64,000 bases of DNA from Leptospirales bacterium. GTDB taxonomy: Bacteria; Spirochaetota; Leptospiria; Leptospirales; Leptonemataceae. The notes beneath the pieces are model-generated. The model worked only from the letters and a program-made list of their open reading frames with translations. It was not told where the DNA came from and searched no databases. Of the stretch, positions 1 through 48,689 are shown in pieces; position 1 is the first letter of the stretch, and the number at the start of each line of letters is the position of its first letter. The position numbers and the translations under genes are program-made. Location: NCBI GenBank assembly GCA_019694655.1, contig JAIBBN010000010.1, forward strand, positions 1 through 64,000, written 5' to 3'.

Positions 1-15
1 GAGCGAGGGCCAATC

Positions 16-190
16 GTTTAACTCCCGCTACGCGCTGCGCTCCTCGGCTTCGCCTGCGGTGCTCGGCCCTCGGCCTCTCGCTGCGCTCGCGCGGACAGGC
101 GCTATTCTGGAATATGGCAGGGCGCCTACCGCGACGGCCTTCTGGCACATTGCCGCTTCGCGGCAACGTCGCGTAGCTAGAACGTTAGCC
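16..190 (+). repeat. integron attC site 1
   Basis: Imperfect palindrome. It opens with GTTTAAC (R'', 16-22) and closes with GTTAGCC (R', 184-190). The inner arms GCTACGCG near the start and CGCGTAGC near the end are exact 8-base complements, as L''/L' boxes should be. The central part resembles the other attC sites of the array. The cassette that owned this site lies left of the window. Confidence 0.8.
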
Positions 191-209
191 GACATCCGCA
201 AAAGCTTAA

Positions 210-228
210 GCCGGCCGTCCTGGCCGGC
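210..228 (+). terminator. GC-rich hairpin at the head of cassette 1
   Basis: GCCGGCC, a 5-base loop, then GGCCGGC, followed by AATTTTGTC. This looks like a Rho-independent terminator with a weak T-tract. It lies between attC 1 and the gene at 274, where it could stop read-through from upstream cassettes. The folding is clear; the function is inferred. Confidence 0.45.
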
Positions 229-273
229 AATTTTGTCATCGTCAAAACCAGCGGTTCGCTGGGAAAACAGTGT

Positions 274-711
274 ATGACAGGATCAGAGTACGTCAGCCTC
301 ATCATCTTTCTTATCATTGTCAGTCTCGTCGGAATTCTTTTGTTCGCGCCATTGCGCCGCATTTTCCGTCGCCGTCGCGAGGAAGCGCTCGCCGATCAGC
401 AGATGCGCATGCGTGAAAACGGCCTTTTGCCACCCCCCGTTTACTCGAAAACGGATCTTCAATCTGAGGCCGAGAAGATCATGGCTCGCCCGGGCTTCTA
501 TGAAAACCAGCTGACATTGTCCCCTCTATACAGTTCAGACGACGCTCTTGACCGCGAATACCCTGATGCGGACAAGTACACGATCGGTCGCAACCTGCCC
601 GACGGGATGAAAGAGGGATGGATTGTCGAGCACCCGTACATTAAGCAGATTCTCGTTCGTGAATTGAAACGGCATCATCGAATTCGCGACTCATGGGACT
701 TGGACGCTTGA
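274..711 (+). CDS. cassette protein with one N-terminal membrane segment
   Basis: 145 residues, family not recognised. Residues about 7-27 form one hydrophobic helix followed by an Arg-rich stretch (RRIFRRRRE), so the N terminus should be outside and the rest, about 110 charged residues, in the cytoplasm. The ATG at 274 follows the attC boundary and the hairpin at 210. It is the only gene of its cassette and reads in the array direction. About 85 bases separate its stop from the next attC. Confidence 0.6.
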   Translation: MTGSEYVSLIIFLIIVSLVGILLFAPLRRIFRRRREEALADQQMRMRENGLLPPPVYSKTDLQSEAEKIMARPGFYENQLTLSPLYSSDDALDREYPDADKYTIGRNLPDGMKEGWIVEHPYIKQILVRELKRHHRIRDSWDLDA

Positions 712-796
712 TCAATGGGTCTTCACCCAGCAGTGGGCCATTCAAGTGTTTCCCCGAGTCGCCCATCCGTGGGCTCCCGACCCCTTGCGGACGATC

Positions 797-996
797 GGCT
801 AACTTCCGGGTAACCGCTGCGCCCTCGACAGGCTCGGGCTCGGCCGCTCGGCCCTCTCCGCCCAAACGGCTCCGCCTCTTTGGGCTACGTCCGGACACGC
901 GCCGCCTTACGGCAGAATAAATGGCGCGTGCCGGAGCGGGCCTTCGGGCAAATCGTTCGCTTCGCTCACGACTTCGGTTACCCTCTTTCGTTAGGC
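797..996 (+). repeat. integron attC site 2
   Basis: R'' GGCTAAC at 797-803 and R' GTTAGGC at 990-996. The inner arms GGGTAACC and GGTTACCC are perfect 8-base complements. The centre shares the blocks CGCGCCGCC and GGCGCGTGCCGGA with attC sites 3, 8 and 11. Confidence 0.87.
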
Positions 997-1000
997 GAAA

Positions 1001-1411
1001 TCAGCGGGCCGGGGAATGCAAGTCTATCGGTAGGATCTTGCTATATTGAACAAAGTCCTTGTCCATCGTGAAGATTGCCAACTCATGGTTCACCGCTACC
1101 GCACAGATCAGAAAGTCCGTAAACGATCCCTGCACTCCTTTGGCTCGGCACCTGTTGAAATACTCTGCAGCCGTTTCGTAATCCTCGGTCCGGATCTCTT
1201 CATCGGGAAAGGCCCGTAACTTGGCCCGCAATTCTTTGAAATCCTCTTCTTTCCTTATCCCGGACAACAGCTCCTGTCGCACCAAGCCCATCAAAACAGC
1301 ACGGTGCGCATCCACGAGCTCTATCAGCGTTTCCCGGACTCCGGGAGAATGCTCGGGTTTGCGCCGCAGGACTTCCGACCAAACGCTCGTATCTATAAGC
1401 ACCCTCGTCAT
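1001..1411 (-). CDS. vapC: VapC-type PIN-domain toxin
   Basis: 136 residues, the usual PIN toxin length. PIN RNases cut RNA with Mg2+ held by acidic residues. Visible here are the N-terminal DTSVW (Asp near position 7), the Glu of RQELLSG, the Asp of SFTDFLI and the late Asp of FTMDKDF, in the normal order. The start overlaps the end of vapB by four bases, antitoxin first. Both genes read against the array direction, so they need their own promoter; the 3' end lies four bases from the attC 2 core. Cassette-borne toxin-antitoxin pairs are known to stabilise long integron arrays. Confidence 0.88.
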   Translation of the reverse strand: MTRVLIDTSVWSEVLRRKPEHSPGVRETLIELVDAHRAVLMGLVRQELLSGIRKEEDFKELRAKLRAFPDEEIRTEDYETAAEYFNRCRAKGVQGSFTDFLICAVAVNHELAIFTMDKDFVQYSKILPIDLHSPAR

Positions 1412-1617
1412 CGCGGTTGCCGTTTCATGCGCGTCTTCTTGTAATCATAGCCCGGATCATACTCTATGCTGTTGAAAAGCTTCTTGATCTCAACCTGCCG
1501 GCGCCTTTGAATGAACTCTTCCAACGCAGAATTCACGGTCTCCCGCTTGGTCTTGAAATGCCCCAGTTTCTTTGCCTCCGTCAGCAGGCGTTCATTTATT
1601 GACAGGTTTGTGGCCAT
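1408..1617 (-). CDS. vapB: VapB-type antitoxin
   Basis: 69 residues. The N-terminal part (ATNLSINERLLTEAKKLG) fits the short antitoxins of the VapB/DUF2191 group, which have a beta strand plus a helix for DNA binding. The basic C-terminal tail should wrap the PIN toxin. It lies immediately upstream of vapC with a four-base overlap. An imperfect palindrome between promoter boxes upstream suggests autoregulation. There is no Shine-Dalgarno sequence before its ATG, so the message may be leaderless. Confidence 0.85.
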   Translation of the reverse strand: MATNLSINERLLTEAKKLGHFKTKRETVNSALEEFIQRRRQVEIKKLFNSIEYDPGYDYKKTRMKRQPR

Positions 1618-1623
1618 TTACAC

Positions 1624-1652
1624 AACATGGCACACATTGTACTGTGTGTCAA
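1624..1652 (-). promoter_or_regulatory. vapBC promoter with operator palindrome
   Basis: On the minus strand a perfect -35 box TTGACA (1652-1647) is followed after 17 bases by a weak -10 CATGTT (1629-1624). The ATG at 1617 comes six bases later, leaving almost no leader. CACACA (1631-1636) and TGTGTG (1643-1648) form an inverted repeat inside the spacer, well placed for VapB or VapBC to block polymerase. Confidence 0.55.
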
Positions 1653-1677
1653 TTCCGAAAAACGGCCCGCTGACTTC

Positions 1678-1880
1678 GCCTAACTTCCGGACAACCGCGG
1701 CGTCGCCCCTGTCGGGGCTCCTTGGGTCTGCGCCTTCTCCGCGCAACCGGCTCACACGTTCGCCTTGTTGCGCTCCGTCCGGTCACGCGCCGCCCGTTGG
1801 GCTGAATAAATGGCGCGTGCCGGATCAGGCTTGACCAAAGACTCGCTCCGCTCGTCCTTCGGTTGTCCTGTCCGTTATGC
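1678..1880 (+). repeat. integron attC site 3
   Basis: R'' GCCTAAC at 1678-1684 and R' GTTATGC at 1874-1880. The inner arms GGACAACC and GGTTGTCC pair perfectly. The centre is close to attC 2 and 8. It ends the VapBC cassette. Confidence 0.88.
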
Positions 1881-1884
1881 GAAA

Positions 1885-2676
1885 TTGTGCGCTCTACCAA
1901 CTTTGAAACCACTCTTAATAATAATACCGCTCGGCTGTGTTTGGGCGCTCTTGGCGATCCATTCTCACGAAGCATCGTTTTGCAGGAATGATGAAGGGTA
2001 CACGATCCTTCTTTTCCTGTACGGATATTCATTCACTGGCTTTGCATCTGGAGTTATCTTGTTCGCAAGACGCAAACTGATTGTCGGATGGCGAATCCTT
2101 TGGATCTTACCTTGGGCTTTCCTCCTTGCCGTGCCTTCCGTATTCCTTATTCACGAATGGGCTGTCCAGACTTGGAGAGAAACTGAGCTCACCGTGCGTC
2201 AATCCCACGCTTCTCTCATTGTTCAGCGTGGCCCTTTTTTTGCCCGGGAGGATATACTGTCCCCGTCCACTAAGTACGGTTCCTGTCTGCCGCAAGGGGT
2301 CCCTTATGAGTCACTTGCCCCCAAAGAGGATGCAGAGAATATGCCTCCTGTGCCCTCCAAGCAGACAATGCTTGAATGGGAAACCAAGTGCAAACCTCAA
2401 TACGCCCTTTCATTCTTCCGACCTGTCACCATCTATGTCCGCGGCTCACCGACGCAATTCAACCGTTTCATTCTCTGGTCACACTGGAAGTGCCAGAACG
2501 CACCCGCCAATTTTGCAGTGTTCCTGAACGACACCGTCGTTGTGGCGATGGCTCGCCAATATTCCTACAGCCGGACAGATGTGTTCGGTCGTTACGTCTG
2601 TCAGTTCCCGGTAGAGACTCGCAAATCTGTCGCTGCATTATTCCCGCTTGAATCGGAACTGAAATGCCAGCATTAA
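1885..2676 (+). CDS. cassette membrane protein of unknown function
   Basis: 263 residues from a TTG at 1885, five bases after the attC 3 core. The same frame stays open upstream into the attC, but that part reads as palindrome, so the TTG is preferred. The first third has three hydrophobic helices (about LLIIIPLGCVWALLA, then IILFLYGYSF-like and ILWILPWAFLLAV regions). The remaining 170 residues are mostly polar, with several Cys, and probably lie outside the membrane. No family recognised. Sole gene of its cassette. Confidence 0.6.
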   Translation: MCALPTLKPLLIIIPLGCVWALLAIHSHEASFCRNDEGYTILLFLYGYSFTGFASGVILFARRKLIVGWRILWILPWAFLLAVPSVFLIHEWAVQTWRETELTVRQSHASLIVQRGPFFAREDILSPSTKYGSCLPQGVPYESLAPKEDAENMPPVPSKQTMLEWETKCKPQYALSFFRPVTIYVRGSPTQFNRFILWSHWKCQNAPANFAVFLNDTVVVAMARQYSYSRTDVFGRYVCQFPVETRKSVAALFPLESELKCQH

Positions 2677-2692
2677 AATCGCGCACAACTTC

Positions 2693-3058
2693 GCATAACT
2701 TCCGTTGCCCGCTCCGCCCTACGCCGCACTTCGTTTCGCTCCGGTGCTCGGTCCTGGCACTCTCGCGGAACCATTTCATTTGTTCCGCTCGCGCGGATGC
2801 GCGCAGGTTTAGGAATATTAGAAGTGCGCGCACCGCGTCGTGCTGCGGACAAATTGACCGGCACGCCGGACAGTCTCGCAAGTCATGCGTAGTACAACAT
2901 TTATATGTTGATACGGGATTTTAGGAATACCTCGCTCCGCTCGAAATGCCTTTAGATAGAAGAAGCAAAAGTTAAGGCGGGCTTTCTCTGAATTCAGCTC
3001 GCTGCCCGGCTCTGCGCTTCGCTCGGCCGGTCAACTTCGGGCAACTAATACGTTATGC
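2693..3058 (+). repeat. integron attC site 4, unusually long
   Basis: R'' GCATAAC at 2693-2699 and R' GTTATGC at 3052-3058 are 366 bases apart, against about 200 for most sites here. The arms GTTGCCCG (2704-2711) and CGGGCAAC (3038-3045) pair perfectly over eight bases, so the two ends belong together. The extra length is in the middle, about 2885-3000, where an AT-richer stretch without a gene interrupts the usual centre. Confidence 0.75.
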
Positions 3059-3089
3059 GAAAGAGGCCGGGCTACAAAACTAGACTACT

Positions 3090-4205
3090 ATGGAACATCT
3101 ATTCATTCAAAAGTCAAAGCTTGAACTCGAGGCACTGTATCGCGCACTCACAGAAACTTTTCCGAATGTTGAATTCAGTCTCTCGGGTGCCAACCTGTCC
3201 GGTAAGGTAAAAGAATTCGGCGTTTTCCGTATTTCGTCGCGCGGCCGTATTCCAAAGCCACAATCGGTCCCTTGCCCATCGCAACTGGACGGACAAATAT
3301 GCCTTGACCTCTTCCTTGCTGCTGTCTGTTCAAAGGTTACGGAAACATGCCTCTGCTGGTTCGATGATGACATCGGATCTGCCTTTGCGATATTCTCAAA
3401 GGGAGCAATAACTGAATTCCGAGGGGAAAGCGAAGACTACCTTTTTGCCCTACGGGGAGAAAAGATTGATGTCACAGACCGTGCACTTTCTGACGAAAGC
3501 CCGCCGATATACGTATTTGCAGTGCTCGACGCCGGACTCTCAGAGTTTCTGGGAACTGTTGATTACGCATATGAGACCGTCTCAAAGCAATATCATGAAT
3601 CCCCGAATCGTGTAAGCTGGCCATCAAAGGAGGCTCCTTCTGTCGCCGGATCACACCCAGTCCTGCGTCTGTGGACGCGTTATGAAGATATATTCAATGC
3701 GGATACTTTCGTCCATCTCGTGTCTGCGACAAGAGAATCAAACTCGGCCGACAAGACGGCCGCGCTCGCTCTGGACTTTCTCAAGCACCCATCGTGCAAA
3801 AAGCCAGGCACCTCTTCACAGGCTCTGGCGCTATCCGGCGCTACTTCCCTGTCTGAATCAATTGAATTGCTAATCTCGGACCCAGTACGACCCGGTGACT
3901 GGGTTCTCGCTTTGGCATATAGTCATCCAACGCCTTCTGAACTTCGTTCCCTTTTGAAAAAAGGTCGCCCCTATTCCTTCGTGGCTCTGGAGACCATTGA
4001 ATACCTAATGAGTCGTGGACAGCGCCCGGAAAAACTCGGACTTGTCCCAGCAGTACGCGAGTTCATCCAGCGGCATCCGTTGAAGTTTAGTTTCACTCAG
4101 GTTGCAAAGACCGAGATCAAGAAGGCCGTCATGGAGTTCGCGGCCGAATCTAACCCTGGGCTCCGCGAAAGAAAATCCATCGAATTCTGCCTGAAGTGCC
4201 TCTAG
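3090..4205 (+). CDS. large cassette protein, unknown
   Basis: 371 residues, soluble, no signal peptide or membrane helix, no family recognised. It is the largest cassette gene here. The N-terminal half is mixed alpha/beta; residues about 215-371 look helical and could be a repeat superhelix (ALALDFLKHPS, EYLMSRGQRPEKLG, EFIQRHPLKF). The ATG at 3090 is the first in frame after the attC 4 core at 3058. The following attC is cut off by the IS1182-like insertion. Confidence 0.65.
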   Translation: MEHLFIQKSKLELEALYRALTETFPNVEFSLSGANLSGKVKEFGVFRISSRGRIPKPQSVPCPSQLDGQICLDLFLAAVCSKVTETCLCWFDDDIGSAFAIFSKGAITEFRGESEDYLFALRGEKIDVTDRALSDESPPIYVFAVLDAGLSEFLGTVDYAYETVSKQYHESPNRVSWPSKEAPSVAGSHPVLRLWTRYEDIFNADTFVHLVSATRESNSADKTAALALDFLKHPSCKKPGTSSQALALSGATSLSESIELLISDPVRPGDWVLALAYSHPTPSELRSLLKKGRPYSFVALETIEYLMSRGQRPEKLGLVPAVREFIQRHPLKFSFTQVAKTEIKKAVMEFAAESNPGLRERKSIEFCLKCL

Positions 4206-4223
4206 ATAGGCCCGGCCTCCCTC

Positions 4224-4230
4224 GCCTAAC
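4224..4230 (+). repeat. truncated attC core
   Basis: GCCTAAC, identical to the R'' of attC 3, sits 18 bases after the stop of the 371-residue gene. The palindromic centre found after every other R'' is missing; IS1182-related DNA follows. This is best read as an attC broken by the insertion or a later deletion. Confidence 0.45.
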
Positions 4231-5938
4231 CAGACTGACGAATAAGTACAGAATTTGAAGCTGCCTGTCCTCGCCTGCCCCTTCGGACAGATCGAGGCGA
4301 ACTTTTTGGATCGGAGCCAGCCGATTCGACGTTTTTCGCAGGGCGGTGCGCGAATGGCGGCCCGGGCGCACGGATTGCGCGATCACAAACGCCGGAGATC
4401 AGCAGCGTTGGCGATCTTTTCGATGTTGTGGACCATGCAATAGAGCAGCCATTGGGCGTTTACTTTTTGTTGACCACGCAGCGTGAAACGATTGAGCCCT
4501 TTCTGGAAGGTAATGTTCGCAAACACGGGCTCCACGATGCCCATGCGTTTTGAATAGAGCCGGCGACCTCGAAGGGTGTCGATCTTTGCCTTCATGCGGG
4601 TGGCGTGCGTCGCTTCGCCGCGATTGTTGATGATGTGTAAATTTCGCCGCCTGGCTGTGTCTGTTCCGAGACAGCGCTTTCGCAGCTGGCACGCTGAGCA
4701 GTCCGAAGCCCTGGCCGCATAGCGGCGAAAATTCGTATCATGAATCCACATCGAAGCCGTTGTCTGACGCAGCGTCTTGCTCGCCGGGCAGGAGTAGGTG
4801 TTGCTCTGTTTGTTGAATCGGAAATCGTCGACAGTGAACTTCGGCGTCGTCGGCTTGCGTCGCTGTCGCCCCTGGATGCGATCTTTGTACCGGCGAGCGG
4901 TTACAAATCGATCATCGCGCCGGCGGTAGCCCTGGTCTGGAATCACTGCCTCAATCTGTCGCCTTGCAAGATAGGCCAGATTATCTTCCGAGAAGTAGCC
5001 TGTGTCTCCCAGCAAGATCGTGCGCCGGATATCAAATCCATGACGATGACGGCGCTTAAGATTTATGTCCAGATTTTCCAGTGTCGGTCGCAACAGTTCG
5101 TGTTCCGGGCCGCGGCCGTGCGCGCCAGCCGAGAGCACAATCTGATGTCTGGCATCCACCAGCGCGATTCCGTTGTAGCCCTGAATCATGCCGCGTGAGG
5201 ACTTGATCTTCGCGCTTTCGTTGTCCGTAACGTTGCTCTGGATTTCATTGTTCCGCTGACCGCGACGCGGCTCATTCTCGCGCAAAAATTTCTCGATGCG
5301 CTTTGATGGCGAAGCTTCGCAACCCGGCTGGCTTTACGGTCGTTCTGCCTGTGGCTGCGCATTACGAGCTGTACTTGAGCTTTGAGCTTGTCGCGTTTCT
5401 TTCGTAGATCGCTGAATGTTCCGCTCCATTCGCGGCTGGCATTCGAGGCCAGTTTACAACCGTCGATCGCCAGTATTCGTCCGCCCACCAGACCCAGCCG
5501 CAGACACACCGCAAGCGCGTCGGCGAAGAGGTCGGCAACCTCGTCACCAAGGGAGGCGACAAAGGCTGCAATCGTTGTACAGTCCGGCATCGCGCAGCCG
5601 GAGAGCGCCATGAAGGTTACATTTGTGGGGCACGCCTCCTCAATCGCCCGCGAGGAATACAGGCCGCGCGAATAGGCATACAGAATGATCTTAAGCAAAG
5701 TACGCGGGTCGAATGCTGGAGCGCCGGTTTCGTCGTTCCTGCAGCGCGTATCCAGACTGCTAAAGCGAAAACGCCGATCAATAATGTCTATCGAAATCAA
5801 CGACGATCATGCGGCATTGTGTGCGATCATGGCGTTTGTAGCGGGCCATCTGCGCTCTCCTTCCGAAACTTCAGAGGCATGACGGCAAGTTGCGTCAATT
5901 TTTGGCGCTTCTTTTCCAAAAGCGGGCTTTTTCGACAA
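4231..5938 (-). mobile_element. IS1182-family insertion sequence, decayed
   Basis: The block between the broken attC core (4224-4230) and the intact attC 5 (from 5939) holds one disrupted transposase of the IS1182 family. The limits given are those of the block; I could not find convincing terminal inverted repeats or a target duplication, so the true ends may lie inside. Confidence 0.65.
4383..5849 (-). pseudogene. IS1182-family transposase, broken in two places
   Basis: The start is an ATG at 5849 with AGGAG upstream, giving MARYKRHD, typical of IS1182 transposases. After about 20 residues the frame is lost, apparently by a small deletion, because the family's N-terminal segment is missing. 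It resumes at about 5800 with the conserved YRNDETGAPA-like block (here CRNDETGAPAFDPRTLL) and the Asp of AIDGCK. A second shift near 5290-5330 leads into the block with EIQSNVTDNESAK, GYNGIALVD and the catalytic C-terminal part (VEPVFANIT). Together the pieces cover almost a whole transposase. It should be inactive. Confidence 0.85.
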
Positions 5939-6140
5939 ACTCAACTTCGGCTTTGCGCTGCGTCACTCGCTTCGCTCGCTCCTCGGGTTTCGCGCTCTCC
6001 GCGCAGCCGGCTCACCGGTTCGCCTTGCTGCGCTCCATCCGGACGGGCGCGATATTTGGAAGATAAGATGCGCGCCCGCCGGAACGCGCTCAACCAAATT
6101 GGCCCTTCGGGCCAACTTCGCAAACCCTAGAACGTTATGC
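5939..6140 (+). repeat. integron attC site 5
   Basis: R'' ACTCAAC (5939-5945) fits RYYYAAC exactly and R' GTTATGC lies at 6134-6140. The inner arms GGCTTTGCG and CGCAAACCC pair with one mismatch. The centre is of the type seen in attC 2, 3 and 8. It lies directly right of the IS1182 block. Confidence 0.8.
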
Positions 6141-6188
6141 GAAATTTTTCCGCGTGGGAAAATGTCCACCAAAAGCGGCTTTTTCTGC

Positions 6189-6224
6189 TTGCCTCCCGGT
6201 CGCCCGTATATATCCTGTATATAC
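6189..6224 (+). promoter_or_regulatory. brnTA promoter and operator
   Basis: A -35-like TTGCCT (6189-6194) and -10-like TATCCT (6211-6216) are 16 bases apart. GTATATA (6206-6212) and TATATAC (6218-6224) form a perfect inverted repeat around the -10 box, a likely site for the BrnA repressor. The toxin's GTG starts at 6226, so there is no room for a normal leader. Confidence 0.45.
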
Positions 6225-6225
6225 A

Positions 6226-6540
6226 GTGATTGATCTCTCGTCTCTGACTGGTTTTCAATGGGATTCGGGTAATTCCGAGAAGAATTGGACGCTGCACCAG
6301 GTGACCAACGGTGAATCAGAAGAAGTGTTCTTCAATGAGCCTATCCTGGTTCGGTCGGATGGCCCACATTCCTCCAAAGCGGAGGGTCGGTACTATGTCC
6401 TCGGACAAACCAACGTGGTAAGGCATCTATTCGTTGTCTTCACTGTCCGAAAAAATCTGATCCGCGTGATTTCAGCCCGAGACATGAATCAGAACGAAGA
6501 TCGCATATATGAAAAACTTAAAAAAGATTCCCCACTTTAA
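6226..6540 (+). CDS. brnT: BrnT-type toxin
   Basis: 104 residues from a GTG at 6226; the frame extends upstream but that part has no family match. BrnT toxins are small RNase-fold proteins that stop translation. Recognisable features are FQWDSGNSEKNW near the N terminus (the family's F-x-W-D-x-x-K/N segment), GRYYVLGQT in the middle and IRVISARDMNQNE near the end. Toxin precedes antitoxin, the usual BrnTA order, and the genes overlap by 32 bases. Confidence 0.85.
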   Translation: MIDLSSLTGFQWDSGNSEKNWTLHQVTNGESEEVFFNEPILVRSDGPHSSKAEGRYYVLGQTNVVRHLFVVFTVRKNLIRVISARDMNQNEDRIYEKLKKDSPL

Positions 6541-6829
6541 GTCCGAAGACGCTGAGCGCGAGTTCTGGGCCTCGCACGATGCCGCAGACTATGTAAACTT
6601 TGAGACTTCCGAGAAGGTATCCTTCGCGGAGCTGCGTCCAACCACGCGCAGTATTTCAATACGTTTACCTGTCCCGCTCATGGACCGGCTTCGAGCCCTG
6701 GCCAACAAAAGAGACGTCCCGTATCAGTCTCTGATTAAGCTGTTCCTCGCCGAACGGGTGGAGACGGAAACCAAACGCTCATCCTCAAGGGAACACCCGC
6801 GAAGCGGCACGCGGAAAAACTTCGCATAA
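6509..6829 (+). CDS. brnA: BrnA-type antitoxin
   Basis: 106 residues. The N-terminal part (IPHFKSEDAEREFWASHD) and the ribbon-helix-helix segment (SISIRLPVPLMDRLRALA, then KRDVPYQSLIKLFL) match the antitoxin of BrnTA modules, which neutralises BrnT and represses the operon. The ATG lies inside brnT. The C-terminal 15 residues are read from cassette-specific DNA, and the stop codon is the TAA of the attC core GCATAAC, so the end of this protein is defined by the recombination site. Confidence 0.85.
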   Translation: MKNLKKIPHFKSEDAEREFWASHDAADYVNFETSEKVSFAELRPTTRSISIRLPVPLMDRLRALANKRDVPYQSLIKLFLAERVETETKRSSSREHPRSGTRKNFA

Positions 6830-7027
6830 CTCCATGTAGCCGCTCCGCTCCTCGGCGGTCAGGCCGCCTGCGGTGCTCGGTCCTTGCACTCTCGACAAAC
6901 GGCTCACTGGTTCGCCTTTTTGTCTCGCGCGGTTGCGCGCGAATTTCGTAATATTAGAAGCGCGCGCACTGCGCCGTGCTGCGGACAAATGCGCTTCGCG
7001 CACTTCTGGTAACTCACCACGTTATGC
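6824..7027 (+). repeat. integron attC site 6
   Basis: R'' GCATAAC at 6824-6830 and R' GTTATGC at 7021-7027. The centre contains GGCTCACTGGTTCGCC, CTCGCGCGG and AATATTAGAAGCGCGCGCAC, shared with attC 4 and 10 rather than 2, 3 and 8. The R'' core overlaps the end of brnA. Confidence 0.85.
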
Positions 7028-7052
7028 GCAATTGCGCGAAAGGAGAACACCG

Positions 7053-7646
7053 TTGATATTCTTGGACGATCACGCAGACGGCTGGCACGCTCATATGCAT
7101 CCAAAAACTCACATACTGGGGATGGCAAAGTCCCCGCTGAATCTGAAAGGCGCAAAATCACGTTCGGTCGAACTTGATTACCTACGCCTTCTGCACACCG
7201 TCATTGCGATCCGCCACTGCCCAAAGATACCAGAGTATCAAGCGTTGATCCCACACTTCCACTCCCACGATGCTCACGGGTATCTGTTCGTCATTGCCGA
7301 GGACATTCGCAGGGCTTTGATTTCCAATCTCGCTTCAAAGTATGACCCCGAACAAACGACAGTTCGCCTATTGTCCCTTGAGGCCGCATATCCTCATGTC
7401 TACGCCGAGCACATCCAGCGTCTCCGTGACGAAAAGAGCCGGAACGCCTCCGCCATTGTACCCGGTGCCCATCCCGGAAGAGCCGCCGCCAATCTCGGAC
7501 GTTTGCTCGGTGAGAAATACTTGGAACTCTGGATTCGCGAAAACTACGCGGACTTCAACGATCCTATCGAACACCCTTTTGGAGTTCAATGGGACTTCTA
7601 TCAGTGGATCCCCGGGAAAATCGCGTGGCCCGCGGCGCCCTCCTGA
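7053..7646 (+). CDS. cassette protein, unknown
   Basis: 197 residues from a TTG at 7053. A strong AAAGGAG lies nine bases upstream, which decides this start over in-frame codons inside attC 6. Soluble, no signal peptide. The N terminus MIFLDDHADGWHAHMHPK is rich in Asp and His, and HFHSHDAHGY follows in the middle, so metal binding is possible but unproved. The C terminus is rich in Trp and Pro. Sole gene of its cassette. Confidence 0.65.
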   Translation: MIFLDDHADGWHAHMHPKTHILGMAKSPLNLKGAKSRSVELDYLRLLHTVIAIRHCPKIPEYQALIPHFHSHDAHGYLFVIAEDIRRALISNLASKYDPEQTTVRLLSLEAAYPHVYAEHIQRLRDEKSRNASAIVPGAHPGRAAANLGRLLGEKYLELWIRENYADFNDPIEHPFGVQWDFYQWIPGKIAWPAAPS

Positions 7647-7663
7647 CCCTTTCGCGGAACGGC

Positions 7664-7945
7664 ATATAACTTCGCGTAACCGCTCCGCTCCTCGGCTTTG
7701 CCTCCGGTGCTCGGACCTCGCGCTCTCGCCGGAGTCGCGGCACGAAGAAAGCGGAAATCACTTCGTGATTCCGCAAAATATGCGCCGCTCCTTCCGGCTC
7801 GTGCGGACGCGCGCATAGGTGAAGAATGAATGCGCGCGTCGCACCGCCGCTCGCCCACAGTTTCGCGCGCCGTAAGGTCGAAAGCCTTCGGCTTTCTCCG
7901 AAATAACGGCGCACGAAACCGTCGAATACTGGCGGTACGTTATGC
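7664..7945 (+). repeat. integron attC site 7, long form
   Basis: R''-like ATATAAC (7664-7670) follows the stop of the 197-residue gene, and R' GTTATGC lies at 7939-7945. At 282 bases it is longer than most sites. Next to the cores GTAACCGC and GCGGTAC nearly pair. The centre contains an extra hairpin (GAAAGCCTTCGGCTTTC near 7880). Confidence 0.72.
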
Positions 7946-8037
7946 GCCATTCCGCATGGGGTCGATCGAGCCAACATGTTCGTCACAGCGAAATTTTCTT
8001 TTTTTAGTCAATATCCTAGTACCCGGAGAGTGTATCG

Positions 8038-8532
8038 ATGAATCCGATTATTGCTTTTGTGAGTCAATTCTTTTGGTTTTCGATCGTTTGGACGGTTGTC
8101 GTTCTTGTTTGGCTTGCCCCGGCAATCCGCGATTCTGAGCGTACAACCCAGCTCAAAGTCTGGCTGACTCCCCAGCTCTTCCGCGTGTTAGGACTCGGGT
8201 TGACCGTGGAAAATCTCGCTCCAGCACTACCACAATCCTTCGCACTTCCAACGGCAATCGGAGATTCATTAACAGCATTGCTCTCCCTCGTGGCGATCCT
8301 GCTTTTGCATCACCGGATCCGCTTCTCAATCGGTTTTGCTTGGGCATGCACCTTGTTCGGTTTGCTCGATCTGCTCATCGCCCTTCCGCATGCGGCTAGC
8401 ATTCATGCAGCCCGCTACCTCCATGGACAATGGTTTGTCCCGGCCGTCTGCGTTCCGCTTATGCTCGTTTGTCATGTCATGGCACTCAAGGCGCTCCTCA
8501 AACCTAAATCATTGGATCTCCATTCCAAGTAG
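8038..8532 (+). CDS. cassette integral membrane protein, unknown
   Basis: 164 residues with about four or five hydrophobic helices covering most of the chain (FFWFSIVWTVVVLVWLA; LTALLSLVAILLL; FAWACTLFGLLDLLIAL; FVPAVCVPLMLVCHVMAL). The ATG at 8038 has GGAGAG upstream. No family recognised. Sole gene of its cassette, reading in the array direction. Confidence 0.7.
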   Translation: MNPIIAFVSQFFWFSIVWTVVVLVWLAPAIRDSERTTQLKVWLTPQLFRVLGLGLTVENLAPALPQSFALPTAIGDSLTALLSLVAILLLHHRIRFSIGFAWACTLFGLLDLLIALPHAASIHAARYLHGQWFVPAVCVPLMLVCHVMALKALLKPKSLDLHSK

Positions 8533-8548
8533 TCACATGCGGAACGGC

Positions 8549-8758
8549 GCATAACTTACGGCTGGCCGCTCCGGTCCTCGGCCAAGGGCCTGCGGTCCTC
8601 GGATTTCGCGCTCTACGCGGAACCGGCTCACCAGTTCGCCTCGTTCCGCTCCGTCCGGACACGCGCCGCCCTTTGGGCGGAACAAACGGCGCGTGCCGGA
8701 CCGCGCTTCAACCACATTGGCGCGGGCGCGCCAACGTCGGCTAGCTTCAACGTTATCT
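8549..8758 (+). repeat. integron attC site 8
   Basis: R'' GCATAAC at 8549-8555 and R' GTTATCT at 8752-8758. The outer arms GGCTGGC and GTCGGCTAGC pair. The centre (CACGCGCCGCCCTTTGGGCGG, GGCGCGTGCCGGACCGCGC) is shared with attC 2, 3 and 11. Confidence 0.85.
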
Positions 8759-8775
8759 GAAATGGCGCAGAGGGG

Positions 8776-9495
8776 ATGACAGTGACTCGCCGCAATCTCT
8801 ACTTCATTGTTGCCGTCATTCTTGGAGCAACGCTAGCTATCTTGGGTCTGTTCTTCTTCGGCATCATATGGTTCAACGACCCTTCAATCAATGAATTCCC
8901 CGCCCGAGGTATCGACGTATCCAATCACCAGGGAGCGATTGACTGGAGGGAGGTGCGCGGAGCCGGAATTTCCTTCGCCTTTATCAAAGCAACCGAAGGT
9001 GCAGACTTCGTTGACAAGCGCTTCCGGAAGAACTGGAGCTCGTCCAGACAGCATGGCATTCTTACCGGAGCATACCTTTTTTATACCCTATGCCGCTCTG
9101 GTGCTGACCAAGCCCGCAACTTTATCGCAACGGTTCCAAGAGTTCCTGATTCCCTGCCTCCCGCCATTGACCTTGAATTCACGGGAAACTTTCGGCTCCG
9201 CCCTGCCAGCCTTGACTTTCGACGTGACATTGAAGTCTTCTATACTATGGTAAAAGACCACTACGGTCAAGAGCCCGTGGTCTACACGACCTACGAGTTT
9301 CTGGACCAGTACCCGATCTCCAAATACTTGAAGCGCCTGTGGATTCGCGACATCTTTACCCGGCCGCGCGCGGGGCTCCGCTGGGCCTTTTGGCAGTACT
9401 CCAACCGGGGCTCAATCAGTGGAGTACCCGGCTTTGTGGACCTGAACGTGTACGCGGGTAGTCTCGCTGAACTTTCCCGCCCGTGGAACCGATGA
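8776..9495 (+). CDS. membrane-anchored GH25 lysozyme
   Basis: 239 residues. Residues about 8-30 form one transmembrane anchor or uncleaved signal; the rest is a full glycoside hydrolase 25 domain, which cuts the MurNAc-GlcNAc bond of peptidoglycan. Visible family motifs are RGIDVSNHQGAIDW (first catalytic-site Asp), FIKATEG (Glu), PPAIDLEF (the DxE pair) and the late WQYSNRG with VDLNVYAG. With the basic residues before the helix the catalytic domain should be in the periplasm, where it could trim the cell's own wall or act on invaders. It overlaps the next gene by four bases in a two-gene cassette. Confidence 0.9.
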   Translation: MTVTRRNLYFIVAVILGATLAILGLFFFGIIWFNDPSINEFPARGIDVSNHQGAIDWREVRGAGISFAFIKATEGADFVDKRFRKNWSSSRQHGILTGAYLFYTLCRSGADQARNFIATVPRVPDSLPPAIDLEFTGNFRLRPASLDFRRDIEVFYTMVKDHYGQEPVVYTTYEFLDQYPISKYLKRLWIRDIFTRPRAGLRWAFWQYSNRGSISGVPGFVDLNVYAGSLAELSRPWNR

Positions 9496-9974
9496 AAGGC
9501 TATTCGGATTTCGGTAACTCGGACGTTGCAAAGGCTGCAGAGTCACTCCATCGGTTGTCTGATATTGACTCTGCCACGCGTCTGTCCAAGTTGCAACCTG
9601 ATCTTGCCGTAGCCGTGCTCTCGGCAGTGGATGTTGAGTCGGAGTGTAGGTGGCTCTCAGCACTCTTTGGTCTCCATCCAGAGAAGGCCCTCTCACTTAA
9701 GTGTCGCCTTACGCACCCGCATCACGTTCTTGATCTTCGGCCAGAATGGCGCAAGGAGTTCCTCGCCCTGATTAGCGTTCGTGTTCTACTGCCAGTCTAC
9801 AAACAGGCTGATCTTGACGAAAGAGCCGCGCTACGCGACTCGTTGTCCCTGGCCCGGGGGTTGCTGCTCCGGATCCTCGCAACTTTTCCCGGCCGAAGCG
9901 ATACCCGGTCGTTCGTTGAGAAGCTGTCCTTGTTTCTGATCAAATCGGGTCCCTCGGTCCTGCTACGGTATTGA
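9492..9974 (+). CDS. partner of the GH25 cassette, unknown
   Basis: 160 residues from the ATG at 9492, which overlaps the lysozyme stop (ATGA). No signal peptide or membrane helix. It looks helical and Leu-rich (ADLDERAALRDSLSLARGLLLRILATF). No family recognised. The tight coupling suggests translation together with the lysozyme. A role as regulator or immunity protein is possible, but with no visible export signal it could only meet a periplasmic domain indirectly. Confidence 0.65.
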   Translation: MKGYSDFGNSDVAKAAESLHRLSDIDSATRLSKLQPDLAVAVLSAVDVESECRWLSALFGLHPEKALSLKCRLTHPHHVLDLRPEWRKEFLALISVRVLLPVYKQADLDERAALRDSLSLARGLLLRILATFPGRSDTRSFVEKLSLFLIKSGPSVLLRY

Positions 9975-9988
9975 CGGGCGGGAACGTC

Positions 9989-10192
9989 GCATAACTCCCG
10001 CTGGCCGCTGCGCGCCTCCGCTACGCTCCGGTGCTCGGCCGCTCGTTCCTCTCGGGAAACATTCGGGCTTTGCCCTCATTTTTTTCCCTCGTGCGGAAAC
10101 GCGCCGGGGAGGAGAAAAGAAGGCGCGTTCCGCACCGGAACTCGGGCACATGCTCGCTGCGACCGCACGTCGGCTAGCTTGATACGTTAGGC
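9989..10192 (+). repeat. integron attC site 9
   Basis: R'' GCATAAC at 9989-9995 and R' GTTAGGC at 10186-10192. The arms CGCTGGC and GTCGGCTAGC pair in part. The palindromic centre is built around GCGCC and GGCGCG. Confidence 0.85.
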
Positions 10193-10216
10193 GAAATACC
10201 CTGTCGGGAGGAAACC

Positions 10217-10693
10217 ATGTCTTGGAAAATCGGGGTTTATGAACTAGAGCACGAGCCACAGACCGTTCGTGACGCCATTCAGAAAATCTACTCTGAGCAT
10301 CAACCTGCTGCCGTTCGAAAAGAATCCTATTCATTTCAACATGATTATGATCCCCTACCCGACAAAGACATACAAGAAATTCTAGGCGCGGCAGCTAAGC
10401 ACAACTCGCCTATTGGTCTCTATGCAAATTTTGAAGCTTTCCTGGTTAATCCCGGACAAAAACGCGGAGAGTATTTGCTGTTCTCCGTTCCAATTCTACT
10501 GAAGCAAATCACGTCATTGTTCCCTCAATTTGTCGGAACTTTTTCTACTGTTCCAGATCCGGTGCGTCAGCTGGATTCTAAAAGTATCTCCGCAAAGGGA
10601 ATCCGCTACGAAAAGGCTAGGCTAATCGCATCGGTTGTGGAGATCGCTCACGCTCCGATCGGAGATGATTGCATCGTTCGCATTTTTTGGTAA
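10217..10693 (+). CDS. cassette protein, unknown
   Basis: 158 residues, soluble, mixed alpha/beta, no recognised family. The ATG at 10217 has GGGAGGAAA upstream, one of the best ribosome binding sites of the array. A conserved-looking segment LYANFEAFLVNPGQKRGEYLLFSVP occupies the middle. Sole gene of its cassette; base composition is lower in GC than the chromosome to the right. Confidence 0.65.
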   Translation: MSWKIGVYELEHEPQTVRDAIQKIYSEHQPAAVRKESYSFQHDYDPLPDKDIQEILGAAAKHNSPIGLYANFEAFLVNPGQKRGEYLLFSVPILLKQITSLFPQFVGTFSTVPDPVRQLDSKSISAKGIRYEKARLIASVVEIAHAPIGDDCIVRIFW

Positions 10694-10712
10694 CCCCCCC
10701 GCAGGGTACTGC

Positions 10713-10926
10713 GCATTACTCTCGCAAACAGCTCCGCGCCTCCGCTACACTACGTTCCGCTACGGTACTCGGTCCTGGCACTCTCAGCAAACGGCTCACA
10801 AGTTCCTTTTTTTTGCTCGCGCGGGCGCGTGCGGATTCAGGAATATCAAAAAGCGCAGGCGCCGCGCCGTGCTGCGGACAATTTGCTCGCTTCGCTCGCA
10901 ACTTCTGTTAGCTTCATACGTTATGC
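10713..10926 (+). repeat. integron attC site 10
   Basis: The R'' is slightly degenerate (GCATTAC, 10713-10719); R' GTTATGC lies at 10920-10926. The centre (GGCTCACAAGTTCC, GCTCGCGCGGGCGCG, AATATCAAAAAGCGC, GTGCTGCGGACAA) matches attC 4 and 6. Confidence 0.8.
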
Positions 10927-11339
10927 GCAATTGGGCGAGCTCAACGGGCCTAGCCACGAACGACACCTTTACGTTCCGGTATTTCTCCTACTTCTCGATC
11001 CTGCCGTACGTAACTATCGTCGGTTCCGGCAAAATGACCGGCACGGGAAGTCCGTTGGTGATTCACTACTCCCTACGCACCTTTGAAAAAGTCATTTGCG
11101 GGGCAGGCGTGGTTTTGCTTGCCTTGACAGGCTTGGGCGCCGCCCTCACGCAAACTCTGCCCGCTCTCCTTGAGGCCATCCCCATCGCCTTGGCTCTGAC
11201 CGCCCACTACACGCTTTTGCGCAGCAACGTTTTCAAGCTCATCAAGGTATTCCGGACAGCCGTTGAAACAACTCAACCCGGTCCAGCGCGCGCAAACGCT
11301 CGCATAACTTCGGGTAAACGCTCCGCTCCTCGGGCATAG
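10923..11339 (+). CDS. cassette membrane protein starting inside the attC core
   Basis: 138 residues if it starts at the ATG of the core GTTATGC (10923). The next in-frame ATG is at 11035 and would still leave the membrane part. Residues about 55-95 hold two hydrophobic helices (VICGAGVVLLALTGLGAAL; LLEAIPIALALTAHYTLL). The frame runs about 38 bases into attC 11 before a TAG, so the last dozen residues are attC-encoded. No family recognised. The start is uncertain. Confidence 0.5.
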   Translation: MRNWASSTGLATNDTFTFRYFSYFSILPYVTIVGSGKMTGTGSPLVIHYSLRTFEKVICGAGVVLLALTGLGAALTQTLPALLEAIPIALALTAHYTLLRSNVFKLIKVFRTAVETTQPGPARANARITSGKRSAPRA

Positions 11340-11500
11340 CCCTGCGGTGCTCGGGTTTCGCCCCTCTCCGCAGAACGGCTCACATGTTCGCCTTTTCTGC
11401 TCCGTCCGAATGCGCGCCGCCCTTTGGGCTGAAAATATGGCGCGCACCGGACCGCACTCAACCACATTGGCGCTCCGCGCCAACGTCGGTTACCCTTGAC
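11302..11500 (+). repeat. integron attC site 11, right core lost
   Basis: R'' GCATAAC at 11302-11308, then GGGTAAACG and a normal centre (GCGCCGCCCTTTGGGC, GGCGCGCACCGGACC). The L' box GGTTACCC is present near 11489-11495, but the expected GTTATGC is replaced by GACGTGCCCCC. It is the last recognisable site of the array. Confidence 0.75.
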
Positions 11501-11503
11501 GTG

Positions 11504-11518
11504 CCCCCGCGCAGGGGG
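11504..11518 (+). other. small hairpin replacing the last attC core
   Basis: CCCCC, loop GCGCA, GGGGG. There is no T-tract, so it is not a standard terminator. It occupies the place where the R' core of attC 11 should be. Confidence 0.4.
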
Positions 11519-11540: not shown

Positions 11541-11580
11541 TTGACGTCAAGTGGATGATTTATTACATTGTAATACAATG
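11541..11580 (+). promoter_or_regulatory. RHH-PIN module promoter and operator
   Basis: A -35 box TTGACG (11541-11546), 17 bases, and a -10 box TACATT (11564-11569). The perfect palindrome CATTGTAATACAATG (11566-11580) covers the -10 and the ATG of the antitoxin at 11578, which lies eight bases after the -10. This predicts a leaderless message repressed by its own product. Confidence 0.6.
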
Positions 11581-11796
11581 AGGCAGGTGGTTTCAATCAG
11601 CATGGGCGATGACCTCGTCCGCAAGCTCAACCGGCTTGCAAAGCAAAAGCACGCCACGAGGAGCGACATCGTTCAAGAGGCGGTTCGTCAGTACGTCTTC
11701 CTCCAAGAAACTGCACGCATTCGAGGGCAACTACGCCCTTATGCAGAGAAGGCCGGCATATTTTCCGAGGAAGAGCTTCTTTCTAAACTCAGTTGA
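11578..11796 (+). CDS. ribbon-helix-helix antitoxin
   Basis: 72 residues from the ATG at 11578; a GTG at 11551 is possible but would place the promoter inside the gene. RQVVSISMGDDLVRKLNRLA followed by ATRSDIVQEAVRQYV is a clear ribbon-helix-helix DNA-binding fold. The C-terminal part (EKAGIFSEEELLSKLS) should bind the PIN toxin. It overlaps the toxin by four bases. A former cassette is plausible, since the module lies just past the last attC. Confidence 0.82.
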   Translation: MRQVVSISMGDDLVRKLNRLAKQKHATRSDIVQEAVRQYVFLQETARIRGQLRPYAEKAGIFSEEELLSKLS

Positions 11797-12197
11797 AGCT
11801 CGTCCTGGACACGAATATTCTCGTATCTGCCCTCGTTTTTTCGGGTGTCGCCGCTGATATTTTCGAAGAAGCTGTTCGTAAGCACGAAGTGTACCTCACG
11901 GAAGAAATCCTTAAGGAGTTCACCCGGATTGTCCAGAAGAAGCTCAAAGTCCCGAAAGCAGCAACGACTCAATATGCGAAGCATCTTCGATCAGGATTCT
12001 TTGTCGTCTCCTCCGACAACAGTCCGCCAGAAATCTGCCGAGATCCCAAAGATAATCTCATACTCCAATTGGCAGACTTCGTGAGTGCGGACTTTATCAT
12101 TACGGGGGACAAGGACCTTCTTGTTCTGGAGAAATTTGGGCAGACCATCATCGTCGATATGCGGACTTTTCGCGCTCAAAATCCAAGTCTTCCGTAG
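11793..12197 (+). CDS. PIN-family toxin (COG1569 type)
   Basis: 134 residues from a TTG that overlaps the antitoxin stop (TTGA). LVLDTNILVSALVF carries the first Asp, EILKEF the Glu, and RDPKDNLILQLA plus FIITGDKDLL the later Asp residues, in the order of the 'putative PIN family toxin' group. These are Mg2+-dependent RNases. The stop codon lies one base from the IS3 element's inverted repeat. Confidence 0.87.
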   Translation: MKLVLDTNILVSALVFSGVAADIFEEAVRKHEVYLTEEILKEFTRIVQKKLKVPKAATTQYAKHLRSGFFVVSSDNSPPEICRDPKDNLILQLADFVSADFIITGDKDLLVLEKFGQTIIVDMRTFRAQNPSLP

Positions 12198-40594: not shown

Positions 40595-40781
40595 GAAACG
40601 GTTGAGCAAAGCGCCGCAGCCGGGCAATCTGGAGGATTATGTCTCCCACGGCCAGGAACTTTCTGGCGTCCGGCCGCTGCGGCCGCACTTCATTTTTCGG
40701 GAACGCCGGCCAACTCCGGAGCGCCCAGGCGCGGACGCGGGCTCTGATTGACGCCGGAAAGGCGGCGGGCGGCGCTTCCCT

Positions 40782-45538: not shown

Positions 45539-45541
45539 GGA

Positions 45542-46267
45542 CTATTCCTCTGGCGCCAGCTCGTAGCCGACTCCATGTCGTGTGATAAACCAGCGCGGAT
45601 TTTGTGGATCGTCCTCAAAAACTTTTCGAAATTTAACGATGTAATTATCGATGGCGCGATTGGTCGGGTATTCATTCTGACCCCAGACCTGATCGAGGAT
45701 TGTATCGCGATGGACCTGACGGCCGCGCGCTGCCGACAGCAAATTCAGAATTGCAAGCTCGCGTTCGTTGAAGCGAAATATTTCTCCATCGCTGCTGCGG
45801 GCTACGCCGGCGGCCGCATCCAGCCGCCAGCGGCCGATGACCACTTGCGGGTCGGTCGCGCGCAAATCGGATCGCTCGCCGGCCGGCGGCGACGGGCTGT
45901 TGCGCCGCAAGCCGGCCCGGACTCGCGCCAGAAGCTCTTCCAGTTCAAAGGGCTTGGTCAGGTAGTCATCGCCGCCTGCTTCAAAGCCGCGCAGCTTATC
46001 CTTCAGCGCGCCGCGCGCTGTCAAAAAGATAATTGGAAACTGATAATCAAGTTCACGCAAACGACGACAGAGCGCCAGACCGTCCAGCCGGCCTGGCATG
46101 GTCACGTCCAGGATGCCCAGTTCCAGCGGAGAACGCCGCGATTGCAACTCAGCCGCCGCCTGGTCGCCGCTGACATATTCCTCGATACGATGGCCCTCGG
46201 CCTCCAGGTTCAAGCGGATGCCGCGGCGCAGACTGGGTTCGTCTTCCACCAGTAGTATCAGGGCCAT
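45542..46267 (-). CDS. OmpR-family response regulator of the haem operon
   Basis: 241 residues from the ATG at 46267 (a GTG lies at 46270). Receiver domain: VEDEPS (acidic pocket), ILDVTMPG (phosphorylated Asp), FLTARG (Thr) and LTKPFE (Lys). The C-terminal winged helix is of the OmpR/PhoB type (FNERELAILNLLSAARGRQVHRDTILDQVWG; RHGVGYEL). It corresponds in position to the Leptospira regulator called Rrlep. The start overlaps the stop of the kinase gene (TGATG). Confidence 0.93.
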   Translation of the reverse strand: MALILLVEDEPSLRRGIRLNLEAEGHRIEEYVSGDQAAAELQSRRSPLELGILDVTMPGRLDGLALCRRLRELDYQFPIIFLTARGALKDKLRGFEAGGDDYLTKPFELEELLARVRAGLRRNSPSPPAGERSDLRATDPQVVIGRWRLDAAAGVARSSDGEIFRFNERELAILNLLSAARGRQVHRDTILDQVWGQNEYPTNRAIDNYIVKFRKVFEDDPQNPRWFITRHGVGYELAPEE

Positions 46268-47352: not shown

Positions 47353-47366
47353 CTGCGACGATCCCC

Positions 47367-48677: not shown

Positions 48678-48689
48678 TGCTTCTTGAAC

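Follow-up and report, generated by a model that had tools for sequence, protein, structure and literature searches.

Integron-like cassette arrays associated with a candidate integrase lacking the I2 helix region

Introduction

Chromosomal integrons of Treponema contain cassette arrays whose attC sites share one orientation, and the integrase gene is read towards the array, since typical IntIs of Spirochaetota are generally in reverse orientation (PMC9668308). In class 1 and Vibrio integrons (IntI1 and IntI4, structure 2A3V), a tyrosine recombinase and a GTT core are associated with arrays of mostly unknown genes and TA pairs, and the I2 helix of the integrase has been described as necessary for cassette capture (PMC7790495). 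Xer recombinases resolve chromosome dimers, and Xer relatives without I2 act on double-stranded DNA. For CTXphi integration by XerCD, the stem of the phage site was reported to lack extrahelical bases and to mimic double-stranded DNA (PMC4792948). Clusters of attC without integrase are classified as CALIN by IntegronFinder, and loss of intI with leftover attC has been reported for T. phagedenis (PMC3607928). No integron with an I2-less integrase was found in a literature search judged by titles and abstract beginnings and excluding most subscription papers and all preprints; for Leptonema only a paper on sewage sludge was returned, and for Turneriella none.

Here, a window of 64,000 nucleotides (the whole stretch of DNA analysed, positions 1 to 64,000 of contig JAIBBN010000010.1, termed C10 below) from a Leptospirales bacterium was investigated. 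A sequence-only reading had described its first 11.5 kb as a chromosomal integron cassette array in what it took to be a Leptospira-like genome, with intI and attI to the left of base 1.

Results

attC-like sites in one orientation separate the cassettes

A covariance model (R1) was built from 14 attC of this genome, 6 of them from the window, and was searched against the whole genome of 3.9 Mb. A total of 29 hits were obtained at E<=1e-3, including 11 on C10 (14, 795, 1676, 2691, 5937, 6822, 7662, 8547, 9987, 10711 and 11300), four on contig C17 and 14 on contig C20, and none elsewhere. Fourteen of the 29 hits were training sequences and were not independent. The 11 hits of the window (14-11512), all in one orientation, matched the 11 sites of the sequence-only reading, whose observation was thus confirmed. 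Rfam gave no hits at gathering thresholds in the window. With the ten window cassettes listed by their R boxes, starts and ends of the same cassette paired as a set (diagonal sum 98, 0 of 100,000 permutations as high), while singly the own end was the best partner for 6 of 10 cassettes and tied best for 1. RNAalifold predicted 41 pairs, of which 23 showed compensatory changes.

The features of the array were located as follows, on the plus strand unless stated otherwise. The first site, attC1 (16-190, R'' GTTTAAC to R' GTTAGCC; model hit 14-194), was followed by the cassette 1 ORF (274-711, 145 aa, no Pfam family) and attC2 (797-996; model hit 795-1000), whose L boxes GGGTAACCG/CGGTTACCC paired without bulge. 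Cassette 2 encoded VapC (PIN, 1001-1411; PF01850, 9.1e-15) and VapB (1408-1617; PF09957, 6.2e-15) on the minus strand (1001-1617), opposite to the array, so that the claim of the sequence-only reading that the cassettes all share one orientation holds for the attC sites but not for the genes of this cassette. As a mobile unit, cassette 2 spanned 990-1684, with terminal arms at 990-1011 and 1663-1684 that were 95% complementary. Then attC3 (1678-1880, L boxes GGACAACCG/CGGTTGTCC), the cassette 3 ORF (1951-2676, start uncertain, the listed ORF opening at 1810), the long attC4 (2693-3058, 366 bp; model hit 2691-2892) and the cassette 4 ORF (3090-4205, 371 aa, no Pfam family) were found. The R'' of attC5 (4224-4230, GCCTAAC) was cut off by an insertion sequence on the minus strand (4231-5943, ends uncertain by a few bases) with DDE_Tnp_1_6 and DUF772 reading frames (4383-5800, minus), inserted directly after AAC of R'', and the right part of attC5 followed at 5944-6140 (model hit 5937-6144).

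Cassette 5 (6229-6829) encoded a BrnT toxin (to 6540, start uncertain; PF04365, 4.1e-22) and a CopG-type antitoxin (6509-6829; PF12441, 3.2e-30). It was followed by attC6 (6824-7027), the cassette 6 ORF (7053-7646, start uncertain, no Pfam family), attC7 (7664-7945; model hit 7662-7903), the cassette 7 ORF (8038-8532, 164 aa, no Pfam family) and attC8 (8549-8758). Both attC6 and attC7 had hardly any L box. Cassette 8 (8776-9974) contained a GH25 lysozyme-like ORF (8776-9495; PF01183, 7.7e-42) and a second ORF (9483-9974), and its terminal arms did not match, which suggested that it is perhaps two fused cassettes. The remaining features were attC9 (9989-10192), the cassette 9 ORF (10217-10693, 158 aa, no Pfam family), attC10 (10713-10926, degenerate R'' GCATTAC), the cassette 10 ORF (10923-11339, start uncertain, reading into the next attC, no Pfam family) and attC11 (11302-11508; model hit 11300-11512), the last site, whose broken R' (GTGCCC) marked the end of the array on this contig.

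A tyrosine recombinase without the IntI insertion stands at the head of arrays in relatives

The sequence-only reading predicted a tyrosine recombinase with the IntI-specific insertion. A search of this genome gave only matches below the TIGR02249 cut-off, and 0 of 22 genomes of the family, this genome included, contained a canonical IntI above it, although 35 of 296 genomes drawn from the phylum had one. Instead, a candidate integrase lacking this insertion of about 41 residues (the I2 helix region) was detected on contig C18 (145-1221, minus), which ended 144 bp after the stop codon at a sequence ending in GTTAT. In this 33-contig draft, array ends were found at contig ends. The candidate integrase and the arrays lay on different contigs, so the link between window and integrase is inferred, and three contigs each carried an array piece that ran into other sequence, which a single array does not explain. 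Base 1 of the window is the end of C10, so the predicted polarity cannot be read here, but it was consistent with relatives.

In the relative G001, the integrase gene (C1:2324384-2325424) was followed by 87 same-orientation sites over 129 kb (C1:2326333-2455381). The integrase was also found next to the array on one contig in genomes G011, G004, G006, G018 and G021. Thus absence of an integrase near the attC cluster, as in CALIN, was true of the window's contigs as assembled but not of the relatives G001, G011 and G004. In the family, 8 of 10 genomes with this integrase had model hits against 1 of 12 without (Fisher p=0.0015). The recombinase of genome G008 (locus L044) gave the best single stretch to the integrase model in the family, but was more distant (41% over 297 residues), showed no array in the 1.7 kb read downstream, and was left out of the integrase profile A1; when it was counted as well, the numbers were 8 of 11 against 1 of 11 (p=0.0075). 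Two family integrases (loci L046 and L048) showed no clear array before their contig ends. In 26 loci picked by eye from pattern hits, a GTT core (attI-like) was located 22-309 bp after the stop codon, with A at -4 in 23 of 26.

The spacing from KG.KDR to HxLRH was 58-65 in the 10 family proteins and 57-68 in 63 of 69 measurable rows of 90, the other 21 lacking one of the two motifs. Of the remaining six rows, four had 100 and are canonical IntI (L134, L138, L141 and L144), and two were unexplained outliers (L117 with 42 and L137 with 16), both outside the I2-less clade of the tree. In comparison, the spacing was 100 in 13 of 13 measured IntI (two of 15 rows, L062 and L063, read in a wrong frame, were left out) and 65 in 6 of 6 measured Xer (4 of 10 rows lacked the motif). 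The IntI of the phylum Spirochaetota, with a spacing of 100, have the insertion. Residues 183-238 of IntI4 (2A3V) faced about 14 profile positions, and the predicted structural model contained only two helices in that stretch, with IntI4 as its best PDB match. The best NCBIfam model for all 5 scanned proteins was NF040815 (XerA/integron type), each below its cut-off. In a tree with Xer as outgroup, ten Xer rows of the family lay on one side of a branch (support 100) and the I2-less rows on the other, so the latter did not group with XerC/XerD.

Similar loci were found in Bacillota, Bacteroidota and other Spirochaetota, including L070 (Saccharibacillus), L073 (Spirochaetota), L075 (Firmicutes MAG), L077 (Peptococcaceae MAG), and L082 and L083 (Bacteroidota), although most of the loci of other phyla showed a single arm pair. 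L078 (Kaistella) showed core and partial arms by eye only, and L080, from an archaeon, showed a core by eye and one site by program, so that presence in an archaeon is probable. Among 54 named loci, contigs ended within 6 kb on the 3' side of the integrase only in 24 and on the 5' side only in 6 (p=0.0014). However, many members of the wider clade showed no array within 6 kb. At low stringency, attC-like structures also occurred upstream (24 in 17 of 64 loci, against 47 in 30 of 64 downstream). Arm pairs also occurred upstream (11 in 427 kb, against 22 in 305 kb downstream).

The sites differ from canonical attC in pairing and folding

Start and end of most cassettes were complementary for about 12-23 bases, with a near-fixed A.C on the top strand (T.G on the bottom strand) at position 11 counted from the GTT. 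Position 11 was A/G in 40 of 45 arm pairs, with that position left out of the scoring; the five exceptions were one cassette of C20 (13859) and L095, L123, L129 and L143, which look like chance. It was also A/G in 32 of 41 cassettes bounded by the model without looking at arms, but in 0 of 6 arm pairs in eight canonical loci, of which only two look like cassette arms. In the 41 cassettes, own-end arms at positions 13-20 matched 5.02 of 8 against 2.90 for other ends (0 of 20,000 permutations). Seven intervals with unresolved cores and one gap were dropped before this count, and some kept cores may be misplaced, including on C20, where only 1 of 7 model-bounded cassettes had 6 or more of 8 matching arm bases. 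Mispairs in the arms outside position 11 favoured the bottom strand only weakly (19 to 8, p=0.052).

R''/R' cores (AAC...GTT) and paired L boxes were present, with hardly any L box in two of 26 sites (attC6 and attC7). The best L-box pairing was without bulge in 26 of 26 sites not interrupted by the IS, whereas the canonical control array G177 had attC of 65-66 bp with a bulged L box; sites in the window's family were usually about 200 bp. The canonical locus G032 also scored as ungapped, although a bulged pairing, worked out by hand, tied, so the contrast rests mainly on G177. The bottom strand folded more stably than the top in 26 of 26 sites as they would be in the excised circle and in 23 of 26 sites alone, a clearer result on strand preference than the count of mispairs in the arms. 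Of these 26 sites, 14 were from G001 and 8 from the window, and sites within an array are relatives, so the counts are not independent.

Discussion

Our results supported the sequence-only interpretation in part: a cassette array of integron type was supported, and a canonical IntI with its specific insertion was not. The window holds part of the cassette array of an integron-like system that differs from known integrons in its enzyme and its sites, a reading to which we assign a probability of about 0.75. The sequences themselves show the one-orientation sites between cassettes, the I2-less recombinase directly upstream of arrays in relatives and read in the same direction, the GTT core between recombinase and array, the complementary cassette ends with their position-11 pair, the unbulged L boxes and the more stable bottom strand. 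The activity of the enzyme, the function of the GTT core as attI, and cassette excision and insertion are inferred. In this view, the recombinase would cut the folded bottom strand of a circular cassette at G^TT and join it to attI. Without I2 and without extrahelical bases, the hairpin stem would be handled as a double-stranded mimic, as XerCD handle the CTXphi hairpin. Strand choice would come from the bottom-strand G.T wobble, an A.C mismatch on the top strand, and the extended stem formed only in the circle would favour capture. Cassettes excised by recombination between neighbouring attC would re-enter at attI.

It is possible, but unlikely, that the I2-less enzyme moves cassettes as double-stranded DNA by an ordinary Xer-type reaction at attI and R' sites, and that the hairpin potential only reflects paired binding sites. 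The behaviour of Xer relatives, the inverted pair formed by L' and R', and the NF040815 matches are in line with this. However, arms beyond position 12 differ between cassettes yet match within a cassette, which a fixed binding site does not explain, and the folding of the bottom strand and the compensatory changes also argue against it. Still less likely, a canonical IntI made these arrays and is missing from the draft or was lost, as reported for T. phagedenis, leaving attC clusters without integrase (CALIN), and the nearby recombinase is incidental. The draft state of the genome would allow this, but it is opposed by the absence of canonical IntI above cut-off in 22 family genomes, by the I2-less gene at the head of the array on the same contig in G001, G011 and other phyla, and by the missing bulge and the position-11 signature. 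Transposon-like elements are very improbable: although several units start and end with a 19-27 bp inverted repeat, no transposase was found among the cassette ORFs of the window apart from the IS, units abut through sites of about 200 bp in one orientation, and the array begins at one GTT core after the recombinase.

Cassette arrays with a reversed integrase gene are already described in Spirochaetota; different here is the association with an enzyme without I2 and with sites without the extrahelical base that I2 docks. More likely than not, a broad lineage of integrons runs without the I2 helix, spans Spirochaetota, Bacillota, Bacteroidota and probably archaea, solves strand choice in another way through enzyme and sites (no extrahelical base, the G.T wobble at position 11, and a stem completed only in the excised circle), and was overlooked because surveys select integrases by the extra domain. 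It may keep the state from which canonical integrons arose. Such a system would give a candidate enzyme for some attC clusters now filed as integrase-less, which is how a tool such as IntegronFinder would probably report these loci, and perhaps, though this link is a guess, for an attC-like resistance-gene insertion in Riemerella for which no mobile element was found (PMC13148043). The I2 helix has been held to have made integron recombination of single strands possible and to be found in no other protein (PMC7790495), and the joint origin of I2 and attC has been called a chicken-egg paradox (PMC4792948). A natural cassette platform with neither I2 nor extrahelical bases would make that question testable.

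attC sites of the genome

The window corresponds to C10:1-64000, that is, to contig C10 of a 3.92 Mb draft assembly in 33 contigs, so that base 1 is a contig end. The R''/R' cores and the palindromes described in the sequence-only reading were found there, and its observation was confirmed. To examine the sites further, 14 attC of the genome were aligned on the bottom strand. A total of 41 pairs were predicted by RNAalifold, 23 of them with changes on both sides that keep the pair. The covariance model built from this alignment detected 29 sites at E<=1e-3 in the genome, including 11 on C10, all in window 14-11512, 4 on contig C17 and 14 on contig C20, and none elsewhere, although 14 of the 29 were training sequences. 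On each contig all hits had one orientation, and each array piece began at or near a contig end.

Complementarity of cassette ends

If the units are cassettes cut at G^TT, the start and the end of a cassette would lie side by side in the excised circle. The ten window cassettes, listed by their cores alone, paired start with own end as a set (diagonal sum 98; 0 of 100,000 permutations reached it), while start and end across one attC paired no better than others (5.33 against 5.56). Singly, the own end was the best partner for 6 of 10 cassettes and tied for 1. When the cores were placed by the covariance model in C10, C20, C17 and part of the related genome G001, 41 cassettes gave 5.02 of 8 matches at positions 13-20 with the own end and 2.90 with other ends (0 of 20,000 permutations), after 8 intervals had been dropped as unresolved or interrupted. 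Six or more of 8 positions matched in 5 of 9 cassettes of C10, 1 of 7 of C20, 2 of 2 of C17 and 15 of 23 of G001. Cassette 8 (window 8776-9974) carries two ORFs and its two ends do not pair, as if two cassettes had fused by loss of an attC.

A near-fixed mismatch was also found in these paired ends (arms). The eleventh base from the GTT is A at the cassette start and C at the cassette end (G when read as reverse complement), which is A.C on the top strand and T.G on the bottom strand. This position was left out of the scoring, yet it was shown by 40 of 45 distinct arm pairs, the others being one cassette of C20 and rows from the loci L095, L123, L129 and L143 that look like chance. In the 41 cassettes bounded by the model it was seen in 32. 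Differently, it occurred in none of six arm pairs from eight loci with canonical IntI, though only two of the six look like cassette arms, and in the canonical array of genome G177 the eleventh base at R' varied (8 sites).

Search for canonical IntI and the integrase of relatives

The sequence-only reading expected a tyrosine recombinase with the IntI-specific insertion, and its interpretation was only partly supported. A profile search with TIGR02249 gave no match above the cut-off in the own genome (0 of 1) or in the family (0 of 22, own genome included), compared to 35 of 296 genomes drawn from the phylum. The best match of the own genome was a protein of 358 aa at C18:145-1221 (minus strand), which ends 144 bp before the end of contig C18, and C18 ends in ...GTATAGAATGAGTTAT.

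Ten family genomes carried this protein, and the ten sequences formed the profile A1; genome G008 has a more distant one that was left out. Most carry an extra N-terminal stretch (e.g. locus L041; IRxIPGxRWxxExxxWxxP in the A1 consensus) outside the part aligned to IntI4, with only a weak HARP likeness in Pfam (E=0.086, below cut-off). In the relatives G011 and G001 the array starts right behind the integrase. In G001, the integrase at C1:2324384-2325424 is followed by 87 sites in one orientation between C1:2326333 and 2455381, about 1 kb from the contig end, while six further sites lie towards the end of C3, one on C2 and one elsewhere on C1 (95 in all). One stretch of 39 kb inside this 129 kb array (C1:2352998-2392355) has no model hit, and could be another attC type or a non-cassette island. 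In G004, G006, G017, G018 and G021, cores or sites follow the integrase up to the contig end, whereas the loci L046 and L048 were unclear. Of the 10 genomes with the protein, 8 had model hits, and of the 12 without it, 1 (P = 0.0015); with G008 counted in, the numbers were 8 of 11 and 1 of 11 (P = 0.0075). As the model is tuned to the attC type of the window, a miss does not mean that no array exists: G017 has a cassette by its arms but no model hit.

Absence of the I2 region

The stretch between KG.KDR and HxLRH was 58-65 residues in the ten family proteins and 57-68 in 63 of 69 measurable rows (of 90), compared to 100 in 13 of 13 measured IntI of the phylum and in four of the scanned hits, and 65 in 6 of 6 measured Xer. 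Against the solved IntI4 structure the profile aligned in two pieces, leaving chain residues 183-238 against about 14 positions. A predicted structural model built from ten named relatives (mean pLDDT 78.8, pTM 0.52) has two helices in that stretch, and its best match in the PDB was IntI4 (TM 0.52-0.58), followed by XerA. A tree of 105 rows put 13 IntI in one clade (SH-aLRT 100) and 60 I2-less rows in another (95), although it was a quick search and did not resolve which is nearer to which. Loss of I2 inside the sampled IntI is therefore not what the tree shows.

Structure and folding of the attC sites

Twenty-seven attC were bounded on both sides without using the L boxes, and one of them is interrupted by an insertion sequence (IS). 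In the 26 others the best L pairing had no bulge, though two (attC6 and attC7) have hardly any L box. By similar scoring, the G177 array had a one-base bulge in 4 of 4 repeat-supported sites read on one strand and in 5 of 6 read on the other, and locus L155 showed bulges. However, locus L156 of genome G032 scored as unbulged in 4 of 4, tying by hand with a bulged pairing, L148 gave only chance-like hits, and L149 to L152 gave none. When folded with DNA parameters, the bottom strand was more stable in 26 of 26 circular attC (mean 4.2 kcal/mol) and in 23 of 26 sites taken from R'' to R', with one tie and two the other way. Fourteen of the 26 sites are from G001 and 8 from the window, and sites of one array are related, so the effective number is smaller.

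Distribution beyond the family

Named genomes were scanned with A1, and the best 80 of the loci obtained were analyzed. Arms with the position-11 signature follow the integrase in Saccharibacillus kuerlensis (L070, two cassettes), Spirochaetota (L073), Firmicutes UBA5388 (L075), Peptococcaceae (L077), Cytophagales (L082), Bacteroidia (L083) and a further bacterium (L084). Rufibacter (L101) and Pontibacter (L124) have 66-68 bp attC-like sites, and in Methanoperedenaceae (L080) a core and one site were seen. The background was not nil: 24 attC-like structures were detected upstream in 325 kb against 47 downstream in 190 kb, and 11 arm pairs upstream in 427 kb against 22 downstream in 305 kb. In the 54 named loci of the clade, the contig stops within 6 kb on the 3' side only in 24, on the 5' side only in 6, on both in 9 and on neither in 15 (P = 0.0014), while the four canonical IntI hits lean the other way (5' only 3, both 1). 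This fits repeats behind the 3' end of the I2-less gene breaking assemblies.

Cassette cargo and neighbouring genes

The window cassettes hold VapBC, BrnT with a CopG-type antitoxin, a GH25 enzyme and proteins without a Pfam family above cut-off. The IS in attC5 (window 4231-5943), with DDE_Tnp_1_6 and DUF772 frames, stands directly behind AAC of R''. The six copies of its left end found in the genome (the window copy, C20:4386, 15346 and 16391, and two copies on C17) all stand directly behind AAC of an R''-like core, as an attC-seeking IS; IS1111-attC elements are another family. A ribbon-helix-helix/PIN pair was located right behind the last, broken attC (window 11551-12197), and is perhaps a former cassette or an array-end TA pair. 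At window 37772-40627 (minus) and 44411-51769 there are a Snf2-type helicase resembling DISARM DrmD, below the curated cut-off, and a heme cluster (hemE, hemL, hemA-like).

Discussion

The anatomy of these loci is that of an integron with a reversed integrase. Enzyme and site miss the two parts that are said to have co-evolved, I2 and extrahelical bases (PMC4792948). As inferred from sequence alone, the simplest mechanism would be a Xer-like enzyme acting on a bottom-strand hairpin that mimics double-stranded DNA, in which the second strand exchange, harmful on such a hairpin, would have to be avoided in a way that remains to be explained. By published definitions the extra domain marks IntI (PMC9024848; PMC9668308; PMC2426708, in which genes were selected by that domain), so the system does not pass as an integron in the strict sense, but, by the same inference, it appears to work like one.
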